Below, piece after piece: positions 1 through 23,295 of a DNA stretch of 37,729 nt; the stretch's first letter is position 1, and the number at the start of each line of letters is the position of its first letter. This stretch comes from an uncultured Anderseniella sp. (lineage in GTDB: Bacteria; Pseudomonadota; Alphaproteobacteria; Rhizobiales; Aestuariivirgaceae). The DNA is taken from the NCBI GenBank assembly GCA_938039915.1, contig CALHUA010000179.1:1-37729 (forward strand), read 5' to 3'. Made by a program: the position numbers and the translations under genes. Below the pieces are notes generated by a model. It was given only the letters and a program-made list of their open reading frames with translations, was not told the origin of the DNA and did no database searches.

Positions 1-1467
1 CAACCGGATCAGTCCAACAAGGTGAACCGCCAGGCCCGCCGCTATCTGCGCAACGACAAGAACGTGCGCAGGATGAACGACGATCAGTTACAGACCCGCA
101 TTCGCAATGGCCGCAACCTGTTGCAGAATGACGGTTTGCGCGGCAACCTCAAACGTCGGGTAAGTGAACAGGTTCAACTGGCTCGCGCAGAGCGGACCCG
201 TCGCGCAGACGCCGCGACACAACCGCAACCGGATCAGGCCGGCGATGTGAACCGCCAGGCTCGACGTTACCTGCGCAACGACAAGAACGTGCGTCGCATG
301 AATGATGGCGAATTGCGGACCCGCATTCGCAATGGGCGCAACCTGTTGCAGCGCGATGGTCTGCGCAACCGGCTTGAACGCCAGGTGCGCGAGCAGGTGC
401 GAGCTGCGCGATCGGAGGTTGAACGCCGGTCGCAGGTGACCCAACAACCGGCTTCCGATGTCAATCGCAGAGCCCGCAACTTGCTGGACGACAATCGTTC
501 ATCCGCCTCATTGCGTGATCCGCAATTGCGCCGCAGGCTCGAAAGGGCCCGCAATATCATGGCTGATCGTGACCTTAATCGCCGTCTGTTCAGGCAGGTG
601 CGTCGGCTGGCGCGCAATGATCGTGACGAATTACGTAATCGTGTTGCCCGTCGCGACCAGAATCAGAGCGAACGGCGCGAAGACAGGCTGGACGCCCGTG
701 CACTGTTGCGTGACAGGCGTGATGTGCGCGACCTGAACGACAGGCAGTTGCAGAGGCGTATCAAGTCTGCCCGTGATCTGCTGGCGTCTGACACATTGCG
801 CGCCGGCCAGAAAGAACGCCTGCGCGATCTGTTGCGCGAAGCCCGTCGGGAAAAGCGCCGCAGGTTGATTGCAGGGCGTGCCGACCGCAGGGAAAGACTG
901 CGCCGCAATCGCGACAACAACCAGATCGTCATCCAGATTCCGCCTGTTCGCATCGGTCCCGACCGGGATGACATTGCTGCAGCTGAAGCCGATGATGAAC
1001 TGCTGGAACAGCAACTGGTTGCGCCACCGCGCCGCCGCATTCAACGTAAGTTCTCGCGACAGGAGTTCCGCAGTGGACGGCCGTCATCGCGCGATTCCAT
1101 GCCGGCCATCGAAGTTGATACAATCCGCTTCGGGTTCAACGAGTCGTTTGTGCGCGAAGAGGAAATCCCTCAACTCGAGCGTATTGGCGAGATCATCGAG
1201 CGCATTGTTGCCGCAAACCCCAATGAGGTGTTTCTTATCGAGGGTCACACCGATGCGGTGGGCTCCGCCGCCTACAATCAGGGATTGTCATTCAAGCGTG
1301 CCAATGCAGTACGTGATGCCATGCTGCAGTTCTTCAACATCGAGCGTACCAACATCGAGACAGTTGGGTATGGCGAAGAGTTCCTCAAGATTCAGACCGA
1401 GGAAGAAGAGGCAGAAAACCGCCGTGTCACCATCCGGCGTATCACGCCGCTTCTGGCAAGCCGGTAG
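1..1467 (+). CDS. Arg-rich repeat protein with C-terminal OmpA domain (5' partial)
   Basis: The frame is open from base 1 and the residues before the GTG at 22 match the linker between later repeats, so the true start lies upstream of the window. The visible N-terminal part holds four related units of about 71-75 residues, each very rich in Arg, with a pattern like ARxLLxDxR...LxDxxLxxRIxxARxLL. The last ~110 residues form an OmpA/MotB-type peptidoglycan-binding domain: a beta strand in IRFGFNESF, then GHTDAVG, N and LSFKRA, containing the Asp and Arg that hold diaminopimelate in this family. The predicted role is an envelope protein that anchors to peptidoglycan. The strongly basic repeats could bind an acidic polymer, but that is inference. 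A strong terminator follows, so this is the end of its transcript. Confidence 0.8.
   Translation, partial: QPDQSNKVNRQARRYLRNDKNVRRMNDDQLQTRIRNGRNLLQNDGLRGNLKRRVSEQVQLARAERTRRADAATQPQPDQAGDVNRQARRYLRNDKNVRRMNDGELRTRIRNGRNLLQRDGLRNRLERQVREQVRAARSEVERRSQVTQQPASDVNRRARNLLDDNRSSASLRDPQLRRRLERARNIMADRDLNRRLFRQVRRLARNDRDELRNRVARRDQNQSERREDRLDARALLRDRRDVRDLNDRQLQRRIKSARDLLASDTLRAGQKERLRDLLREARREKRRRLIAGRADRRERLRRNRDNNQIVIQIPPVRIGPDRDDIAAAEADDELLEQQLVAPPRRRIQRKFSRQEFRSGRPSSRDSMPAIEVDTIRFGFNESFVREEEIPQLERIGEIIERIVAANPNEVFLIEGHTDAVGSAAYNQGLSFKRANAVRDAMLQFFNIERTNIETVGYGEEFLKIQTEEEEAENRRVTIRRITPLLASR
22..880 (+). repeat. Tandem coding repeats, about 213-225 bp per unit
   Basis: Four in-frame units begin near 22, 247, 460 and 685. 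The first two are nearly identical at both DNA and protein level (VNRQARRYLRNDKNVRRMND in each). The third and fourth have diverged but keep the Arg and Leu spacing. This suggests recent duplication of unit one or two on top of older repeats, and the array probably continues upstream of the window. Confidence 0.8.
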
Positions 1468-1607: not shown

Positions 1608-2030
1608 ATGGCCGTCCAGCGCACATTCTCCATCATCAAGCCAGATGCCACCCGCCGCAATCTGACCGGCAAGATCAATTCCATGATCGAGGCAGCCGGC
1701 CTGCGCATCATCGCGCAAAAGCGTGTGAAGTGGTCCCAAGACCAGGCCAAGGAGTTTTATGCAGTTCACAAGGAACGTCCGTTCTACATGGACCTGGTCA
1801 ACTTCATGACCTCGGGCCCCGTTGTCGTGCAGGTTCTTGAAGGTGAAGACGCTGTTGCCGCTTATCGCACAGTCATGGGCGCAACCAATCCGGCTGACGC
1901 AGATGCCGGTACAATTCGCAAGGAATGTGCAGAATCCATCGAGGCAAATTCCGTGCACGGGTCCGACAGTGTCGACAACGCCGCCATCGAAATAGCCCAG
2001 AACTTTTCCGATGCCGAAATCGTCGGCTGA
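1608..2030 (+). CDS. ndk: Nucleoside diphosphate kinase
   Basis: This enzyme transfers the gamma phosphate of ATP to other nucleoside diphosphates through a phosphohistidine intermediate, keeping NTP and dNTP pools balanced in the cytoplasm. The 140-residue length is typical. The N-terminus [10 protein letters not shown] and the active-site segment NSVHGSDS, with catalytic His117, are diagnostic. The ATG at 1608 was chosen because it gives the standard family N-terminus; the frame is open further upstream (to 1530) but that sequence does not resemble the family. The gene stands alone between a terminator and a hairpin. Confidence 0.97.
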
Positions 2031-6557: not shown

Positions 6558-6986
6558 TTATTTCACGGTTACAGTGATTTTTTCGGACATGACCGGCGGG
6601 TTGTGAGGAATATGGCTCCAGTCGCCGAGCACCAGTTGCAGGGTATGTGTGCCTGCCGGCAGTTCCAGTGTCTTCTCTGTCTGGCCGCCACCAAAGTGGA
6701 TATGCTGGTCATCGGCAGGAATGGGTTCGTTCAACTCTTCGCCTTCAATAGCCTCGTTGATGATCAGATGATGATGGCCGGTATGTTCCTTTTCAGTTCC
6801 CGCCGGCGCAACGCCCATGCCTTTCAGGCCAAACCGGATCGTTACCGGGTTGGTCAGCGTGTCTCCATCCTTGACGTTGATGAAGTAAACGCCGGCGCCT
6901 TCGGGAGCAGGGGTTTCGCCTGCGATAACCGTACCGGAAACGGCTATAGTGGCGGCGAGGCTTGCGATTGAGATGAGTTTGTTCAT
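6558..6986 (-). CDS. Secreted DUF4399-domain protein
   Basis: The product is 142 residues. A signal peptide (about residues 1-22) precedes one DUF4399 domain: VYFINVKDGDTLTNPVTIRFGLKG, then a His-rich HTGHHHLIIN, DQHIHFGGGQT and a closing beta strand. The family is exported and of unknown function; the histidine clusters suggest metal binding, which is inference. GGAGAG upstream of the ATG supports the start. The gene is divergent from an ECF sigma-factor gene, and a possible ECF-type promoter lies 26 bases upstream, so it could be a target of that sigma factor. Confidence 0.85.
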   Translation of the reverse strand: MNKLISIASLAATIAVSGTVIAGETPAPEGAGVYFINVKDGDTLTNPVTIRFGLKGMGVAPAGTEKEHTGHHHLIINEAIEGEELNEPIPADDQHIHFGGGQTEKTLELPAGTHTLQLVLGDWSHIPHNPPVMSEKITVTVK

Positions 6987-7011
6987 AGTTTCTCTCCTTT
7001 GGTAATGTCAG

Positions 7012-7037
7012 TACGACGTTGCGGTACTGTCGGATAA
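7012..7037 (-). promoter_or_regulatory. Candidate ECF-type promoter for the DUF4399 gene
   Basis: On the minus strand TTATCC is followed after 16 bases by CGTA, ending 25 bases before the DUF4399 start codon. The elements and spacing resemble ECF promoters of alphaproteobacteria (TGATCC/CGTA type), but the -35 match is partial. This is inference from a short match. Confidence 0.25.
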
Positions 7038-7078
7038 ACACCGCAAGGCAACGGATTATTCGATCGGCAAACAAAAAT

Positions 7079-7591
7079 TTGGGGTCTGAACATTTGCGCG
7101 ATGAACTGGAACAGCACCTGTCTGCCTTGTGGAGGTTCGCTCTTGTGCTCACCCGCGAGCCGGAGCGTGCCCGCGACCTCGTGCAGGCGACCTGTGTTCG
7201 CGCGCTGGAAAAAGCCGCGATGTACCATCCCGATACCAGGCTTGACCGCTGGTTGATGACCATGATGATGAATGTCTGGCGCAATGAGCTCAGGGCAGCA
7301 CGGGTGCGCACGGGCAGTGGCACGGTTGATGCGGAAAACGTGTTGAGTTTCGACGGATCTGCTCATGTGGAAACGAATATTTTTGCCTCCCAGGTGTTAA
7401 CTGCAGTAGCAGCGCTTCCTCAGGCACAGCGCGAGACGGTTTTGCTGGTCTATCTCGAAGGCTGGACATATGCCGAAGCAGCCAACGCACTGGACGTACC
7501 GATCGGAACGGTAATGAGCAGGCTAGCCGCAGCCCGGGCAAAATTGGCTGGTATGAACCCGCAAAACGATGCGGTCAGGAAGTCGAAATGA
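7079..7591 (+). CDS. ECF-type RNA polymerase sigma factor
   Basis: The product is about 170 residues. Region 2 is visible in WRFALVLTREPERARDLVQATCVRALEKA and the WLMTMMMNVWRNELR segment. Region 4 is visible in LPQAQRETVLLVYLEGWTYAEAANALDVPIGTVMSRLAAARAKL, with its helix-turn-helix. The start is uncertain because there is no ATG before region 2: TTG at 7079, TTG at 7094 and TTG at 7019 are all possible. A start at 7079 or 7094 gives the usual family N-terminus, and GGGG at 7081-7084 would suit 7094. The stop overlaps the ATG of the anti-sigma gene by four bases, so translation is coupled. Confidence 0.88.
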   Translation: MGSEHLRDELEQHLSALWRFALVLTREPERARDLVQATCVRALEKAAMYHPDTRLDRWLMTMMMNVWRNELRAARVRTGSGTVDAENVLSFDGSAHVETNIFASQVLTAVAALPQAQRETVLLVYLEGWTYAEAANALDVPIGTVMSRLAAARAKLAGMNPQNDAVRKSK

Positions 7592-8358: not shown

Positions 8359-9879
8359 CTAACCCATTTGCTGCAGCAGGAAGTACAGAAAGCCGGCCAG
8401 CACCGCGGTTGCCGGCACCGTGATGATCCATGCGGCGACAATCGTCATGAAGTGGGACCTGCGTACCAGTTTGCGGTAAACGATTTCATCTTCGCTGCGC
8501 TCTTCAGCCTGCGCTTTCGCAATCCCGGCATTGCCGGCCTTGCGGGCCAGATAGGTGCGCCGCCGTTTTGAGTGCGTTGTGTAGTATTCGCGCAGGAATC
8601 CGACACCAAAGACCCCGCCAACCGCTATGTGAGTGGAACTGACCGGCAGACCGAGGCCGGAAGCAATCAACACCGTGATGGCGGCGGAAAGGGCCACGCA
8701 GAACGCCCGCATCGGATTCATCTTGGTGATCTGCTCGCCGACCATCTTGATCAGTTTTGGTCCATACAGAAACAGTCCAAGGCTGATACCGAAGGCGCCT
8801 ATCATCATCACCCACAACGGAATGCCAACCTTTGCGTCAACCGATCCGGACTGGATTGTATGAAGGATGGCTGCAAGCGGGCCAACCGCGTTGGCAACAT
8901 CATTGGCACCGTGGGCGAACGACAACAGCATGGCCGAAAAGATCAACGGGATATGAAACAGCTTCCGCAGTGACTGATTGCGGTTTTCCATACCTTGCGA
9001 TTGCGCCCTGATAATCGGCCGCAGAACCAGTATCGACGTGCCGAACACAGCAATGCCGAGCATTGCGATAGTAGCCAGGTCCGGCTTCCATACTTTTTTG
9101 AGGCCTTTCATGACCAGGTAGCAGGTGAAGGCGGCAAGCATGATGGAGACCAGCACCGGCACCCATTTCCGCGCTGCGGCAATCTTGTCTTCCTGATAAA
9201 TGATGTTGGACTTGATGAACCACAAGAACAACGCGGCAATGCCGCCACCCAGCACGGGCGAAATGACCCAGCTGGCCGCAATCGCACCCATCACGCCCCA
9301 GTTCACCACGCTGAAACCTGCCGCCGCAATGCCGGCCCCCATCACACCGCCAACCACTGAATGGGTTGTGGACACCGGCGCGCCAAGCCAAGTCGCCAGG
9401 TTGACCCACATGGCACATGACAGCAGAGCCGCCATCATGGCCCACACGAAGGTATTGGCATCGGCTACCTGTTTGGGATCGACAATGCCCTTGGAGATGG
9501 TTGAGACCACGTCGCCACCTGCGATGATCGCACCTGCGGTTTCAAAAACCGCAGCGATGACCAGGGCCGCCATCAGTGACATGGCCTTCGAACCCACAGC
9601 CGGGCCTACATTGTTGGCGACATCATTGGCGCCGATGTTCAGTGCCATGTAACCGCCGATGATGGCGGCAGCGACAATCAACGCACTGTTTGGATTTTCA
9701 CCGGAATATGACGCAGCCAGCAATCCGGCACAGGCCAGAAACACGATTGCCAATCCCGGTGCCAGCAATTGCATGGACAGCGCCCTGGTCGCAGTTTCCA
9801 TGCTGGAAAGTTTTGACAGGTCCTTGTCGAGCGAAGTCTTGCGCAATTGAGGCGCAGCAGGTTGGGTGTCTTCACTCAT
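8359..9879 (-). CDS. pit: PiT-family inorganic phosphate transporter
   Basis: The 506-residue permease carries both PHO-4 signature repeats, GANDVANNVGPAVGSKA at 83-99 and GANDVANAVGPL at 324-335, and about ten membrane spans. PiT proteins import phosphate as a metal-phosphate complex driven by the proton gradient (some family members use sodium). It is longer than the ~330-residue rhizobial Pit because of a cytosolic N-terminal segment of about 35 residues and a central loop. The usual DUF47 partner gene is not adjacent. A candidate Pho box lies 24 bases upstream. No strong ribosome site precedes the ATG, so Met27 or Met36 are alternative starts. Confidence 0.93.
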   Translation of the reverse strand: MSEDTQPAAPQLRKTSLDKDLSKLSSMETATRALSMQLLAPGLAIVFLACAGLLAASYSGENPNSALIVAAAIIGGYMALNIGANDVANNVGPAVGSKAMSLMAALVIAAVFETAGAIIAGGDVVSTISKGIVDPKQVADANTFVWAMMAALLSCAMWVNLATWLGAPVSTTHSVVGGVMGAGIAAAGFSVVNWGVMGAIAASWVISPVLGGGIAALFLWFIKSNIIYQEDKIAAARKWVPVLVSIMLAAFTCYLVMKGLKKVWKPDLATIAMLGIAVFGTSILVLRPIIRAQSQGMENRNQSLRKLFHIPLIFSAMLLSFAHGANDVANAVGPLAAILHTIQSGSVDAKVGIPLWVMMIGAFGISLGLFLYGPKLIKMVGEQITKMNPMRAFCVALSAAITVLIASGLGLPVSSTHIAVGGVFGVGFLREYYTTHSKRRRTYLARKAGNAGIAKAQAEERSEDEIVYRKLVRRSHFMTIVAAWIITVPATAVLAGFLYFLLQQMG

Positions 9880-19395: not shown

Positions 19396-19519
19396 GGAAG
19401 ATTAACGCTCTTTGTGCTGTGTCACTGGGGTGGTTGTCATTGATGTGTTATATATCTCTATCAGACAGATGACCGACTGCAGTATTGGCGGCTCCTTTCA
19501 GCGCGCGGAACCAGGAAGC

Positions 19520-21724
19520 ATGAATCTCGAAAGCAAGGAATCCCAACAATTGGCGGACGCCAAACCGGCAGCCGGCACCGCGCACGATCATCAGGATCTG
19601 ATCAAATCCCCCAAACGCTTTTTCAACCGGGAACTGTCCTGGCTGGGCTTCAACTACCGAGTGCTCATGGAAGCGCGCAATACCGCTCATCCTCTGTTCG
19701 AACGTCTCCGCTTTCTGTCCATTTCCGGCAACAACCTGGATGAGTTCTACATGGTCCGCGTGGCGGGACTTGCCGCCCAGATACGCGAGCAGGTCACCGA
19801 CTTGTCGCAGGATGGCCTGACACCGGCCGATCAGTTGTCCAGCGTACGCGCAGAGGCTAGCGAACTGATGGGCGAGCAGGACAAGCGCTGGCATGCCTTG
19901 CGCGAAGAACTGCATGAAAACCGCGTTGAGCTCATCAATACCGATCAGCTTACCAGCCAGGACCGGACGTGGCTGGATGAGCGTTTTCACGAGCAGGTGC
20001 TGCTGGTGCTCACGCCCATCGCCATTGATCCGGCTCATCCGTTTCCGTTTCTGCCCAACCGTGGCCTGATGATTGCGCTTGAGCTTGTGCGCAAGTCTGA
20101 CGGTGAGCAGATGAAAGCGCTGGTGCAGGTGCCGCAGCAGCTTGAACGTTTCACCCGTTTGCCGGGCAACAAGACCCATGAAGACCAGCCGGTCGCACGC
20201 TTCATCATGATCGAAGACATGATCGCGCATTTCACCCCGCGGCTGTTTCCCGGATATCAATTGCAGGGCAGGGGCATATTCCGGATCCTGCGTGACAGTG
20301 ATATCGAGGTTGAGGAAGAAGCCGAGGACCTTGTGCGCTATTTTGAACGCGCCCTGAAGCGTCGCCGCCGCGGCAGTGTGGTGCGTCTTGAAGTTGATGG
20401 CGGATGTCCGGAAACCCTTCGTACCTTCATCGCCCGTGAACTCAACGCAGATGCCGAAGCAATTGTCATGTGTGATGGTGTTGTCGGGTACGCGGACACG
20501 TCTCAGCTCATTATCGATGATATGCCGGAACACAAGTTTCCACCTTACAACCCGCGCTTTCCGGAACGTATCCGTGATCATGGCGGCGACTGTTTTGCAG
20601 CCATTCGGCAAAAGGACATCATCGTCCATCACCCGTATGAATCATTTGACGCCGTGGTGCAGTTTGTCCGTCAGGCGGCTCGCGATCCGGATGTGGTTGC
20701 AATCAAGCAGACCTTGTATCGCACGTCCAACCAGAGCCCGATCGTTGAGGCACTGGTCATGGCGGCAGAGGCGGGAAAGTCCGTCATGGCGGTTGTTGAA
20801 CTGAAAGCCCGGTTCGATGAAGAAAAGAACATCCAGTGGGCGCGAAATCTGGAGCGTGCCGGCGTGCAGGTGGTGTTCGGTTTTGTTGAACTGAAAACCC
20901 ATGCCAAGACGTCGATGGTCGTCCGGCGTGAGGGCGGCCACCTGAGAACTTATGTCCATTACGGCACCGGCAATTATCATCCGATCACCGCGCGCATCTA
21001 TACCGACATGTCGTTCTTCACCTGTGATCCGGCTCTGTGCCGTGACGCGGCACGCCTGTTCAACTATGTATCAAGTTACGCCGAGCCGACCGAGCTTGAA
21101 CGCATTGCCTTGTCACCGCTGACGCTGAGCAAGCGCCTGATCTCGCACATTGAAGAAGAGATTGTTCATGCCAAGGCCGGCAGGCCGGCAGCCATCTGGG
21201 CGAAAATGAATTCTCTGGTTGATCCGGAAATCATCGATGCGCTGTATCGGGCAAGCAATGCCGGGGTTCAGATTGAACTGGTCATCCGCGGTATTTGCTG
21301 TCTGCGGCCCGGCGTGGCCGGATTGTCCGACAATATTCGCGTGAAATCGATTATCGGCCGTTTTCTGGAGCATTCACGCATTGTCTGTTTCGGCAATGGC
21401 GATGGCCTGCCAAGCGACAAGGCGCGCATTTACATCTCGTCGGCAGACTGGATGCCCCGCAACCTGCATCGCCGCGTCGAAACGCTGGTGCCGGTGGACA
21501 CACCGACCGTCCATCAGCAGGTCCTGGATCAGATCATGGTCGCCAACCTGAAGGACAACCAGCAAAGCTGGCAATTGATGCCCGACGGCAGCTCCCAGCG
21601 CATCGCACCTGGCCCTGATGAGGAGCCGTTTAACGCTCATGACTACTTTATGAACAACCCATCGCTGTCCGGACGCGGAAGTTCTTTGAAAGATAGCCTG
21701 CCACCTGCTATTGCCGGTCATTAA
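19520..21724 (+). CDS. ppk: Polyphosphate kinase 1
   Basis: The 734-residue enzyme reversibly makes inorganic polyphosphate from ATP. Domain order is as in E. coli PPK1: N domain with [17 protein letters not shown], the head domain, and two C-terminal phospholipase-D-like domains. The phosphohistidine motif HYGTGNYH begins at His480, and [10 protein letters not shown] and [14 protein letters not shown] follow. The ATG at 19520 has AGGAAG just upstream, closer than usual; an ATG at 19469 is the alternative. The 124-base gap after hdaA may hold its own promoter. ppx follows after 59 bases. Confidence 0.97.
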
Positions 21725-21783: not shown

Positions 21784-23295
21784 GTGAACCCGGCCAAGAG
21801 ACTCGACAGGATTGACGGTGCGCCACCGGTTGCAGTGGTGGACATCGGTTCAAACTCCGTGCGCATGGTCGTATATGACGGCCTGAGGCGCGCGCCATCG
21901 CCAATGTTCAATGAAAAGGTGTTATGCGCGCTCGGACGCGGTGTGGCTGAAACCGGTGCGCTGGACGATGAGGCGTCAGAGCGGGCCCTGAACGCAATCC
22001 GGCGGTTTCGCGCGCTGTGCAACCAGATGAATGTCAGCGAGATCTTTTCCGTGGCGACCGCTGCTGTCCGTGATGCTTCCAACGGCAGCGAGTTCATAAC
22101 AAGAGCCAAGAAACTGCTTGGCGCTGATATCGGTGTCCTGACGGGACGTCAGGAAGCGGCTTTCGCAGCCAAGGGCGTGCTGTCCGGCATTCCCGATGCC
22201 GAAGGTATTGTCGGCGACCTTGGCGGTGGCAGCCTGGAACTTGTCGATGTCTCGATGGGCAAGTTGCGCGATGGCATAACACTGCCGCTGGGGCCGCTGC
22301 GCATTCTGGGTGAAACCGGCCCGGACATTGAAGCCGCCACCAGGTACATCGATGCCCAGCTTGACCGGGCAAAGTTGTTGCAGAACCTGGACGGGCGCAC
22401 CTTTTACGGTGTTGGCGGGGCCTGGCGTAACCTTGCCCGGCTGCACATGGCTCAGATCCATTATCCGCTGATCATTGTTCAGGGCTACACGATGGACAGG
22501 TCAACGGCCCAGTCACTGGCTGACTTTGTTTCGAGACTGTCACCGGACACGCTCAAGGGCATTGAAGCGGTGTCCAAGAGCCGGTCTGAAACACTGCCGC
22601 TGGCGGCGTTGGTGCTTGAACGGTTGCTGGCCCGTACCCAGCCCAAGGACATGGTGACGTCGATTTATGGCGTACGTGAAGGCTTGCTGTTCGGCAAACT
22701 CAAAAAACGGGTGCGCGATTCCGACCCGTTGCTGAATGCCAGTTGGGATTTTGCAAAGCGCTATGCGCGATCGCCGAACCATGAACTGGAATTGTGCCAG
22801 TGGACCAATGCGTTGTTCACCAACGACAAGCACGCTGAAACCGAAGAAGAACGCCGCCTGCGCCATGCCGCCTGCATGATGGCCGACATCTCCTGGCGGG
22901 CAAATCCGGACTACAGGTCCGGCCGCGCGCTGACCATCATCTCGCAGGCCTCGATTGTCGGGGTCGATCACCCGGGGCGGTTGTTCCTGGCTCTGGCGGT
23001 CTTCTTCCGCTACCAGGGCATCAACGCGAAACACGCACCGCGCGAATTCGTCGACCTGATTCCGGAGGACTGGCTGGAGCGTGCCCGCATACTGGCCGGC
23101 GCCATGCGCCTTGCCTATGTGCTGACCGGTGCCATGACCGGACTTCTGCCCAAGATCAAATTGTTCATAGACGGCAAGAAACTGGTTCTGGACATGCCAA
23201 AGAAGCTGTCCGATCTTTATGGCGAGTCTGTCGCAAAGAAGCTGACTCAGCTGGCTGGAGCCATGGGTCTCGAAGCGGAAATACGTCGCGGCTGA
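21784..23295 (+). CDS. ppx: Exopolyphosphatase/Ppx-GppA family
   Basis: The 503-residue product is an actin-fold phosphatase that removes terminal phosphates from polyphosphate (and, in some members, pppGpp). VVDIGSNSVRMVVYDG and GDLGGGSLEL are the two phosphate loops. A C-terminal extension of about 190 residues resembles the HD-like domain of long Ppx proteins. Translation starts at a GTG that abuts an in-frame TGA. Adjacency to ppk makes a polyphosphate synthesis/breakdown pair. Confidence 0.94.
   Translation: MNPAKRLDRIDGAPPVAVVDIGSNSVRMVVYDGLRRAPSPMFNEKVLCALGRGVAETGALDDEASERALNAIRRFRALCNQMNVSEIFSVATAAVRDASNGSEFITRAKKLLGADIGVLTGRQEAAFAAKGVLSGIPDAEGIVGDLGGGSLELVDVSMGKLRDGITLPLGPLRILGETGPDIEAATRYIDAQLDRAKLLQNLDGRTFYGVGGAWRNLARLHMAQIHYPLIIVQGYTMDRSTAQSLADFVSRLSPDTLKGIEAVSKSRSETLPLAALVLERLLARTQPKDMVTSIYGVREGLLFGKLKKRVRDSDPLLNASWDFAKRYARSPNHELELCQWTNALFTNDKHAETEEERRLRHAACMMADISWRANPDYRSGRALTIISQASIVGVDHPGRLFLALAVFFRYQGINAKHAPREFVDLIPEDWLERARILAGAMRLAYVLTGAMTGLLPKIKLFIDGKKLVLDMPKKLSDLYGESVAKKLTQLAGAMGLEAEIRRG

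Follow-up and report, generated by a model that had tools for sequence, protein, structure and literature searches.

The 37,729-nucleotide stretch of DNA analysed here (the window), from an uncultured Anderseniella sp., begins with the 3′ part of a gene whose product carries arginine-rich tandem repeats ahead of an OmpA-like peptidoglycan-binding domain. Our best explanation is that this product is a periplasmic, peptidoglycan-anchored arm of helical beads that, in the lineage of the window, also acts as an electrostatic tether, a reading to which we give a probability of roughly 0.5. The wall-anchored periplasmic arm is the probable part of this reading, whereas the electrostatic grip, putatively on an anionic membrane, is tentative. 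The anchor is ordinary, and the novelty is the repeat unit that has been set on a known anchor, an unnamed three-helix repeat of restricted lineage distribution that extends the range of OmpA-anchored proteins. A first-pass annotation of the window is partly confirmed: its observation of the repeats is real, but its more striking claims, namely recent duplication, arginine as the defining trait, and surface exposure, fail. The part that stands is a lineage-restricted arm built like beads on a string, in which charge varies as a natural series.

Completion of the Gene

Positions 1 to 1464 form an open frame of 488 codons in the list of open reading frames (ORFs), with its stop codon extending to 1467. 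The frame runs off the left edge of the window. Window position 1 is also position 1 of contig C179, so the 5′ end of the gene is cut by a contig edge of the assembly (G000; 3.37 Mb, 258 contigs, 78% complete). The terminal 95 nucleotides of another contig of the same genome, C81, match the opening 95 of the window exactly, as happens when an assembly breaks at a shared k-mer. C81 supplies the 5′ part, with a signal peptide and two further units, and bears out the first-pass view that the array continues beyond the window.

The joined protein has 761 amino acids and six full units, the same length as the ortholog in G002, a genome of the same genus, to which it aligns with 635 identities, 122 mismatches, and 8 gaps. 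This agreement fits a six-unit join, although it does not prove the copy number. In order, the joined protein contains the signal peptide, a helical-looking stub that matches the repeat unit weakly and in part (4.7 bits), and a Gln/Pro-rich stretch, then the six units followed by a conserved neck and the OmpA domain. The signal peptide, which runs from MKRVFQ to PVSATAQ, is of the Sec type with signal peptidase I-type export. With cleavage assumed after residue 29, the mature protein holds 145 arginines and 21 lysines against 98 acidic residues, for a net charge of +68 and an isoelectric point (pI) of 11.6. No lipobox was flagged in the N-terminus on C81 or in the N-termini of relatives, for some of which the start is unpicked or wrong. 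The features of the gene within the window, all on the + strand, are as follows.

1..1467, +: OmpA-domain gene with N-terminal helical repeats, 3′ part (ORF list, contig edge, C81 overlap)
34..204, +: repeat unit 1 within the window, corresponding to unit 3 of 6 after joining (30.3 bits with the out-of-genus profile; three-helix bead in the model)
259..429, +: repeat unit 2, unit 4 of 6 (32.1 bits; modelled as a single unit)
472..642, +: repeat unit 3, unit 5 of 6 (41.6 bits)
694..864, +: repeat unit 4, unit 6 of 6, with its last helix reaching to about 915 (44.6 bits; model helix 268–305)
916..1110, +: conserved neck from the repeats to the OmpA domain, DIAAAEADD..LLEQQLVAPPRRR.. (alignment of 24 relatives)
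1129..1422, +: OmpA-like peptidoglycan-binding domain (PF00691; Foldseek to OprF 5u1h, E 5.3e-6)
1252..1254, +: Asp418, aligned with the HTD Asp of A. baumannii OmpA 3td3, invariant in 24 aligned sequences
1297..1299, +: Arg433, aligned with the "lslaran" Arg of 3td3, invariant in 24 aligned sequences

The Predicted Wall Anchor

The window protein matches PF00691 with 60.3 bits against a cut-off of 27.2, in keeping with the first-pass reading of a peptidoglycan-binding OmpA domain. The 50 best rows of a Foldseek search with the whole model are, by title, OmpA-like or wall-binding domains, and the fold also matches Acinetobacter baumannii OmpA solved with a peptidoglycan pentapeptide (3td3/3td5). 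The 3td3 counterparts of Asp418 and Arg433 are those that hold diaminopimelate (DAP). Arg433 is presumably the DAP-binding position, an assignment that combines the 3td3 alignment with the A. baumannii numbering. The protein is predicted from these alignments to be anchored to peptidoglycan through an OmpA domain with DAP-pocket residues.

In excerpts of the report on PapS of Rhodospirillum rubrum, the arginine equivalent to the DAP-binding arginine of A. baumannii OmpA is required for meso-diaminopimelate binding and for function (PMC11369160). PapS, as those excerpts describe it, is an alphaproteobacterial precedent for an OmpA-anchored organiser of the envelope, and is a lipoprotein with one N-terminal domain ahead of an OmpA-like domain at 156–273. 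The window protein appears to be set apart from this description by its signal peptidase I-type export and its six beads. OprF (5u1h) and A. baumannii OmpA (3td3/3td5) are like the window protein in C-terminal profile, fold, and the Asp/Arg pair. The window protein differs in carrying predicted helical beads instead of a β-barrel at the N-terminal side, and in having no lipobox. Residues 1–305 of the model, which covers the window part of the protein, contain no strand. Assignment as a porin OmpA was rejected (PRK10808, 29.1 bits against a cut-off of 277; no barrel predicted), as was a Pal or YfiB lipoprotein (Pal_lipo 53.4 against 125.35 bits; YfiB 62.8 against 128 bits; no lipobox).

Taken together, the signal peptide, the absence of a flagged lipobox, the lack of a predicted barrel, and the Asp/Arg pair indicate the periplasm of a Gram-negative cell, which makes the surface placement proposed in the first pass doubtful. 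Teichoic-like material, one of the ligands proposed there, is not expected in that compartment. An export signal combined with strong positive charge would also suit a surface-exposed or released adhesin-like protein, but with neither a barrel predicted nor a lipobox flagged, and with an OmpA domain of the periplasmic wall-binding kind, this is highly improbable.

The Repeat Unit

Four units of about 57 residues lie at residues 12–68, 87–143, 158–214, and 232–288, with starts spaced by 75, 71, and 74 residues, as anticipated by the earlier description of at least four units of about 75 residues. Their scores come from a profile of 113 units from 28 proteins, all outside the genus, and compare with a best score of 10.8 bits among 500 shuffles of residues 1–330. 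With a 57-position profile, 148 domains reach E < 0.01; they lie in 37 of the 70 sequences, namely 36 of the 69 OmpA-domain ORFs and the C81 fragment. The unit alignment, A2, holds 135 of 149 units and omits short ones, near-duplicates of L026, and a few of full length (L020, L055, L064). Hydrophobic positions 1, 4, 5, 14, 19, 23, 29, 30, 35, 43, 47, and 54 are common to the arginine-rich and arginine-poor sets, as are basic positions 9, 22, 27, 40, 44, 51, 55, and 57; positions 1 and 57 are the edges of the profile.

AlphaFold models a single unit (unit 2) as helices at 2–11, 21–36, and 42–65, with a mean predicted local distance difference test score (pLDDT) of 94.1 and a predicted template modelling score (pTM) of 0.80. 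The 488-residue protein is modelled as four successive beads (mean pLDDT 82, pTM 0.50). Ten-residue pLDDT means are 79–95 over the units and fall below 50 in the linkers 74–77, 147–150, and 223–229. The unit is therefore predicted to be a three-helix bead, with the beads joined by flexible linkers.

As far as the libraries and literature searched here go, the unit is unnamed, and no Pfam, NCBIfam, or Protein Data Bank (PDB) family was found for it, in agreement with the first-pass annotation. At E ≤ 1 the 488-residue protein matches OmpA alone in Pfam, and unit 1 by itself matches no family. The 135 units of relatives give weak and scattered Pfam matches (25 of 52 families listed, cut-offs absent from the tally), among which the best listed is Metal_resist (E 4.4e-4, a single unit) and the commonest listed is LEM (7 units, best E 0.064). 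In NCBIfam the best E is 0.0023, for a single unit, among the 25 of 28 families listed. A PDB sequence-profile search with the unit gives a best E of 0.019 across 24 positions, and Foldseek with the bead alone gives no significant match (best E 2.2). VIA-align reaches Z 7.2 against ordinary bundles (BAG domains, ribosomal chains, spectrin repeats), but the tool notes that Z 6–7 lies within the range of unrelated helical bundles and may reflect a common arrangement only. The open-access literature held no title on this repeat among the matches listed.

Several known folds were considered. Spy/CpxP-like helices are represented by the one Metal_resist unit and one CpxP match at E 0.52, with no such chain among 20 PDB-profile rows. 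LEM and DEK_C folds give weak, scattered Pfam matches and are absent from the structural matches listed. The spectrin repeat is alike as a tandem three-helix bundle (Z 6.3 to the dystrophin repeat 3uun), but it is longer, at about 106 residues against about 57, and the Z value is within the range of unrelated bundles.

Arm Length and Proposed Mechanism

The distance from signal peptide to OmpA domain has a median of 532 in repeat-bearing proteins (n = 29, coefficient of variation (CV) 0.13) and 554.5 in repeat-free proteins (n = 30, CV 0.14; Mann–Whitney p 0.067). Starts could be assigned for 29 of the 35 repeat-bearing proteins and for 30 of the 33 without repeats. Among the 29, those of L015, L031, and L032 are visibly miscalled; without these three the repeat-bearing median is 542 (n = 26, CV 0.11). 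Similar arm length despite differing sequence fits a spacing or reaching role.

After export the protein would lie in the periplasm, its C-terminus bound to diaminopimelate and its arm extending away from the wall, like a string of beads fixed there at one end. The arm, of about 500–600 residues, would reach from the wall to hold or space another envelope layer or partner, a mechanical or organisational job. In the lineage of the window, arginines on the bead surfaces would let the arm grip electrostatically as well. The likeliest target is the anionic phospholipid face of either the inner or the outer membrane, which would make the protein a non-covalent tether between wall and membrane. Excerpts of PMC11527210 describe Agrobacterium tumefaciens and related species as having no Lpp and as tethering outer-membrane proteins to the wall through LD-transpeptidases. 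The window protein possibly serves the same task, in bacteria described there as having no Lpp. The Agrobacterium-type tethers of those excerpts are covalent and made through outer-membrane barrels cross-linked to peptidoglycan, whereas the window protein would act non-covalently and without a barrel.

Several points weigh against the combined arm and tether. Similar arm length, as compared here between repeat-bearing and repeat-free relatives, may come from descent alone. No second anchor, whether lipid, transmembrane helix, or barrel, is seen at the N-terminus. Most repeat-bearing proteins (23 of 36) carry only −3.0 to +4.8 charges per unit, including paralogs in the genus of the window, and since charge is not conserved across the family, a charge-dependent grip cannot be common to it. 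Finally, the variable positions are placed at the surface from their non-hydrophobic character.

Arginine and Charge

Arginine makes up 27.9% of residues 1–305 (net charge +46, pI 11.9), which upholds the first-pass description of the units as arginine-rich. The median across 28 other ORFs of the window, which are mechanical and some surely not genes, is 5.9%, and the highest value is 19.9%, in an antisense frame. That frame (6796–7263, − strand) is most likely not a gene and is antisense to ORF 7019–7591, which we take to be an ECF (extracytoplasmic function) sigma factor from the look of its sequence.

High guanine-plus-cytosine (GC) content is ruled out as the source of the arginine. Arginine fraction is uncorrelated with the GC content of the locus (rho −0.04, n = 36), and the Arg/Lys ratio is 2.8–12 in units against 0.75–1.5 in neighbouring ORFs of four genomes, three of which have loci of 47–49% GC. 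In G027, for example, the ratios are 5.0 and 0.75. Arginine is nonetheless not the defining trait that the first pass took it to be, as mean net charge per unit ranges from −3.0 to +11.6 across the 36 repeat-bearing proteins. Values of +5.7 to +11.6 occur in 13 of them: the main gene of the genus, G014, G015, and genera g3 and g9. One G003 locus (L041, G003:C93:20936-24537) holds adjoining paralogs, one arginine-rich (+6.5 per unit) and one neutral (−0.3). A low-charge paralog is also present in G001 and G005, and none was seen in the incomplete genome of the window. Arginine-rich lineages are basic at the non-core positions 12, 13, 28, and 38 and neutral at 18, positions that are often acidic elsewhere. 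The basic surface looks as though it is under selection in some lineages, on a scaffold that would not need it, and the wall-anchored arm seems to have become strongly charged as a local variation.

The beads may instead be a charge-indifferent spacer that sets length or bulk between the wall and an N-terminal partner, with arginine a product of lineage drift or a solubility or stability feature without a ligand. The family-wide range of charge suits such a spacer, as do the repeat-free relatives, whose Pro/Glu/Gln/Ala-rich stretches carry net charges of −90 to +62 (counted from the frame start) at similar arm length. The eight shared basic positions are basic in more than half of both low- and high-charge units, so part of the arginine is structural. 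However, the four window units of G000 and the units of G001, G002, and G004 hold +9.2 to +10.8 per unit even where sequence has diverged, with G003 of the same genus at its +6.5, and arginine is favoured over lysine at any GC content. On balance the spacer is a possible account, and a somewhat doubtful one.

Alternatively, along the lines of the first pass, the ligand of the beads might be not a membrane but a soluble or wall-borne anionic polymer (an anionic periplasmic glucan, polyphosphate, DNA, or the peptidoglycan). The pI of the array would suit this, and the bead loosely resembles small ribosomal chains, which we take to be the ribosomal RNA binder uL29, the structural output naming ribosomes only. 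Its Z of 6–7 to these chains is, however, within the range of unrelated helical bundles. The same window encodes, 18–22 kb away, polyphosphate kinase- and exopolyphosphatase-like ORFs (19469–21721 and 21865–23292, + strand), identities that we presume from sequence. This pair is far from the arginine-rich gene, and enzymes of these types are not known to be periplasmic. The strong positive charge on which polyanion binding would depend also varies widely across the family. Polymer binding is unlikely.

A proposal broader than the tentative tether of the preferred reading is an electrostatic-tether family in the Hyphomicrobiales, whose studied members have no Lpp, with arms of about 500–600 residues in which bead number and bead charge (neutral to +11) are tuned separately. 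We regard it as improbable; if true, reach and grip would be set by independent evolutionary dials. The natural series, one scaffold at graded charge per bead and in one genus even as paralogs, would make it possible to ask directly whether wall–membrane spacing depends on charge, on length, or on the bead as such in bacteria related to Agrobacterium, which has no Lpp according to the excerpts cited above. If the charge has no ligand, the protein is an ordinary lineage-specific arm.

Distribution and Array History

The repeat is present in 55 of 69 genomes and all 10 genera of the family of the window. In a sample of the order it is found in 24 of 297 genomes and 8 of 123 genera, and in a sample of the class in 2 of 289 genomes: that of the window, and one more in which the match is weak and partial (E 8e-4). 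The small genomes of genus g3 are uneven: 8 of 11 give no repeat match, yet the units of G031 and G035, at +11 each, rank among the richest in arginine. Related loci are the best 80 of 534 confirmed stretches, and a motif filter dropped 36 of the 80. A second scan, across all 3963 ORFs in these loci, places repeats in an OmpA-domain ORF at 12 of the 80, none of them among the 36 dropped, and gives one further match of 14.8 bits in an unrelated frame of L118.

A tree of the OmpA domain and neck separates 36 repeat-bearing from 33 repeat-free proteins by a fully supported branch, with a warning from the tool of long branches and a midpoint root only. From this it appears that the unit arose, or became fixed, a single time in this protein. 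The repeat-free proteins (Mesorhizobium, Nitratireductor, Aurantimonas, Tardiphaga, and others) lie on the opposite side with an arm of similar length, which is of low complexity and does not contain the unit.

Unit number varies among relatives, as the comparison proposed with the first-pass annotation brought out: six in G001 and G002 and four in G003 and G004, all in the same genus, and 2–7 across the 36 proteins, some of which are cut by contig ends. The first two window units had been described as nearly identical and recently duplicated. They are 75% identical in amino acids and 70% in nucleotides, with 0.19 nonsynonymous (dN) and 1.7 synonymous (dS) substitutions per site, which rules this out. 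Window unit 2 is closer to its counterparts in other species, namely unit 4 of G002 (93% amino acid identity) and unit 4 of G001 (88%). Unit 3 is 81–82% and unit 4 is 86–96% identical to counterparts in G001, G002, and G004, and the first units of G000, G001, G002, and G004 are just 72–82% identical. Because window units 2 to 4 are closer to their cross-species counterparts than units 1 and 2 are to each other, the identities place the duplication before these species and mark the last units as orthologous across them. A younger duplication is found in G003 (units 1 and 2, 85% nucleotide identity, dS 0.37). Tandem Repeats Finder detects no DNA-level array in the window, as expected for units only about 70% alike. 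The last three units have dN/dS of 0.06–0.12 among G000, G001, G002, and G004 and 0.16–0.29 against the more distant G003, ratios that are rough since several dS values are near or beyond saturation. By these ratios the last three units are under purifying selection, less strict than that on the OmpA domain.

Neighbouring Genes

The gene is followed by a further feature.

1608..2030, +: nucleoside diphosphate kinase-like gene, downstream neighbour (tblastn)

We take this gene to be ndk from its sequence. Four neighbours were sought in other loci with tblastn: ndk, the transporter after it, an AhpD-like gene, and a cytochrome-like gene. Matches to ndk occur at 18 of 24 repeat-bearing and 0 of 68 repeat-free loci, a comparison in which flanks are unequal and the orthology of the two groups is not established. 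The AhpD-like neighbour is matched at 8 of the 24 repeat-bearing loci. Among 91 records of distant relatives carried on plasmids, the 15 listed cover no more than 36% of the query and are either annotated as "OmpA family protein" or without a listed gene. Elsewhere in the window, an ORF at 8359–9879 (− strand) is PiT-like, of the phosphate permease kind. The genome of the window also holds a contig-edge gene (G000:C227:1-770, L006) with an OmpA/MotB-like C-terminus after short tandem repeats (GEKPNIGTGDKPNLG-like), its frame open.
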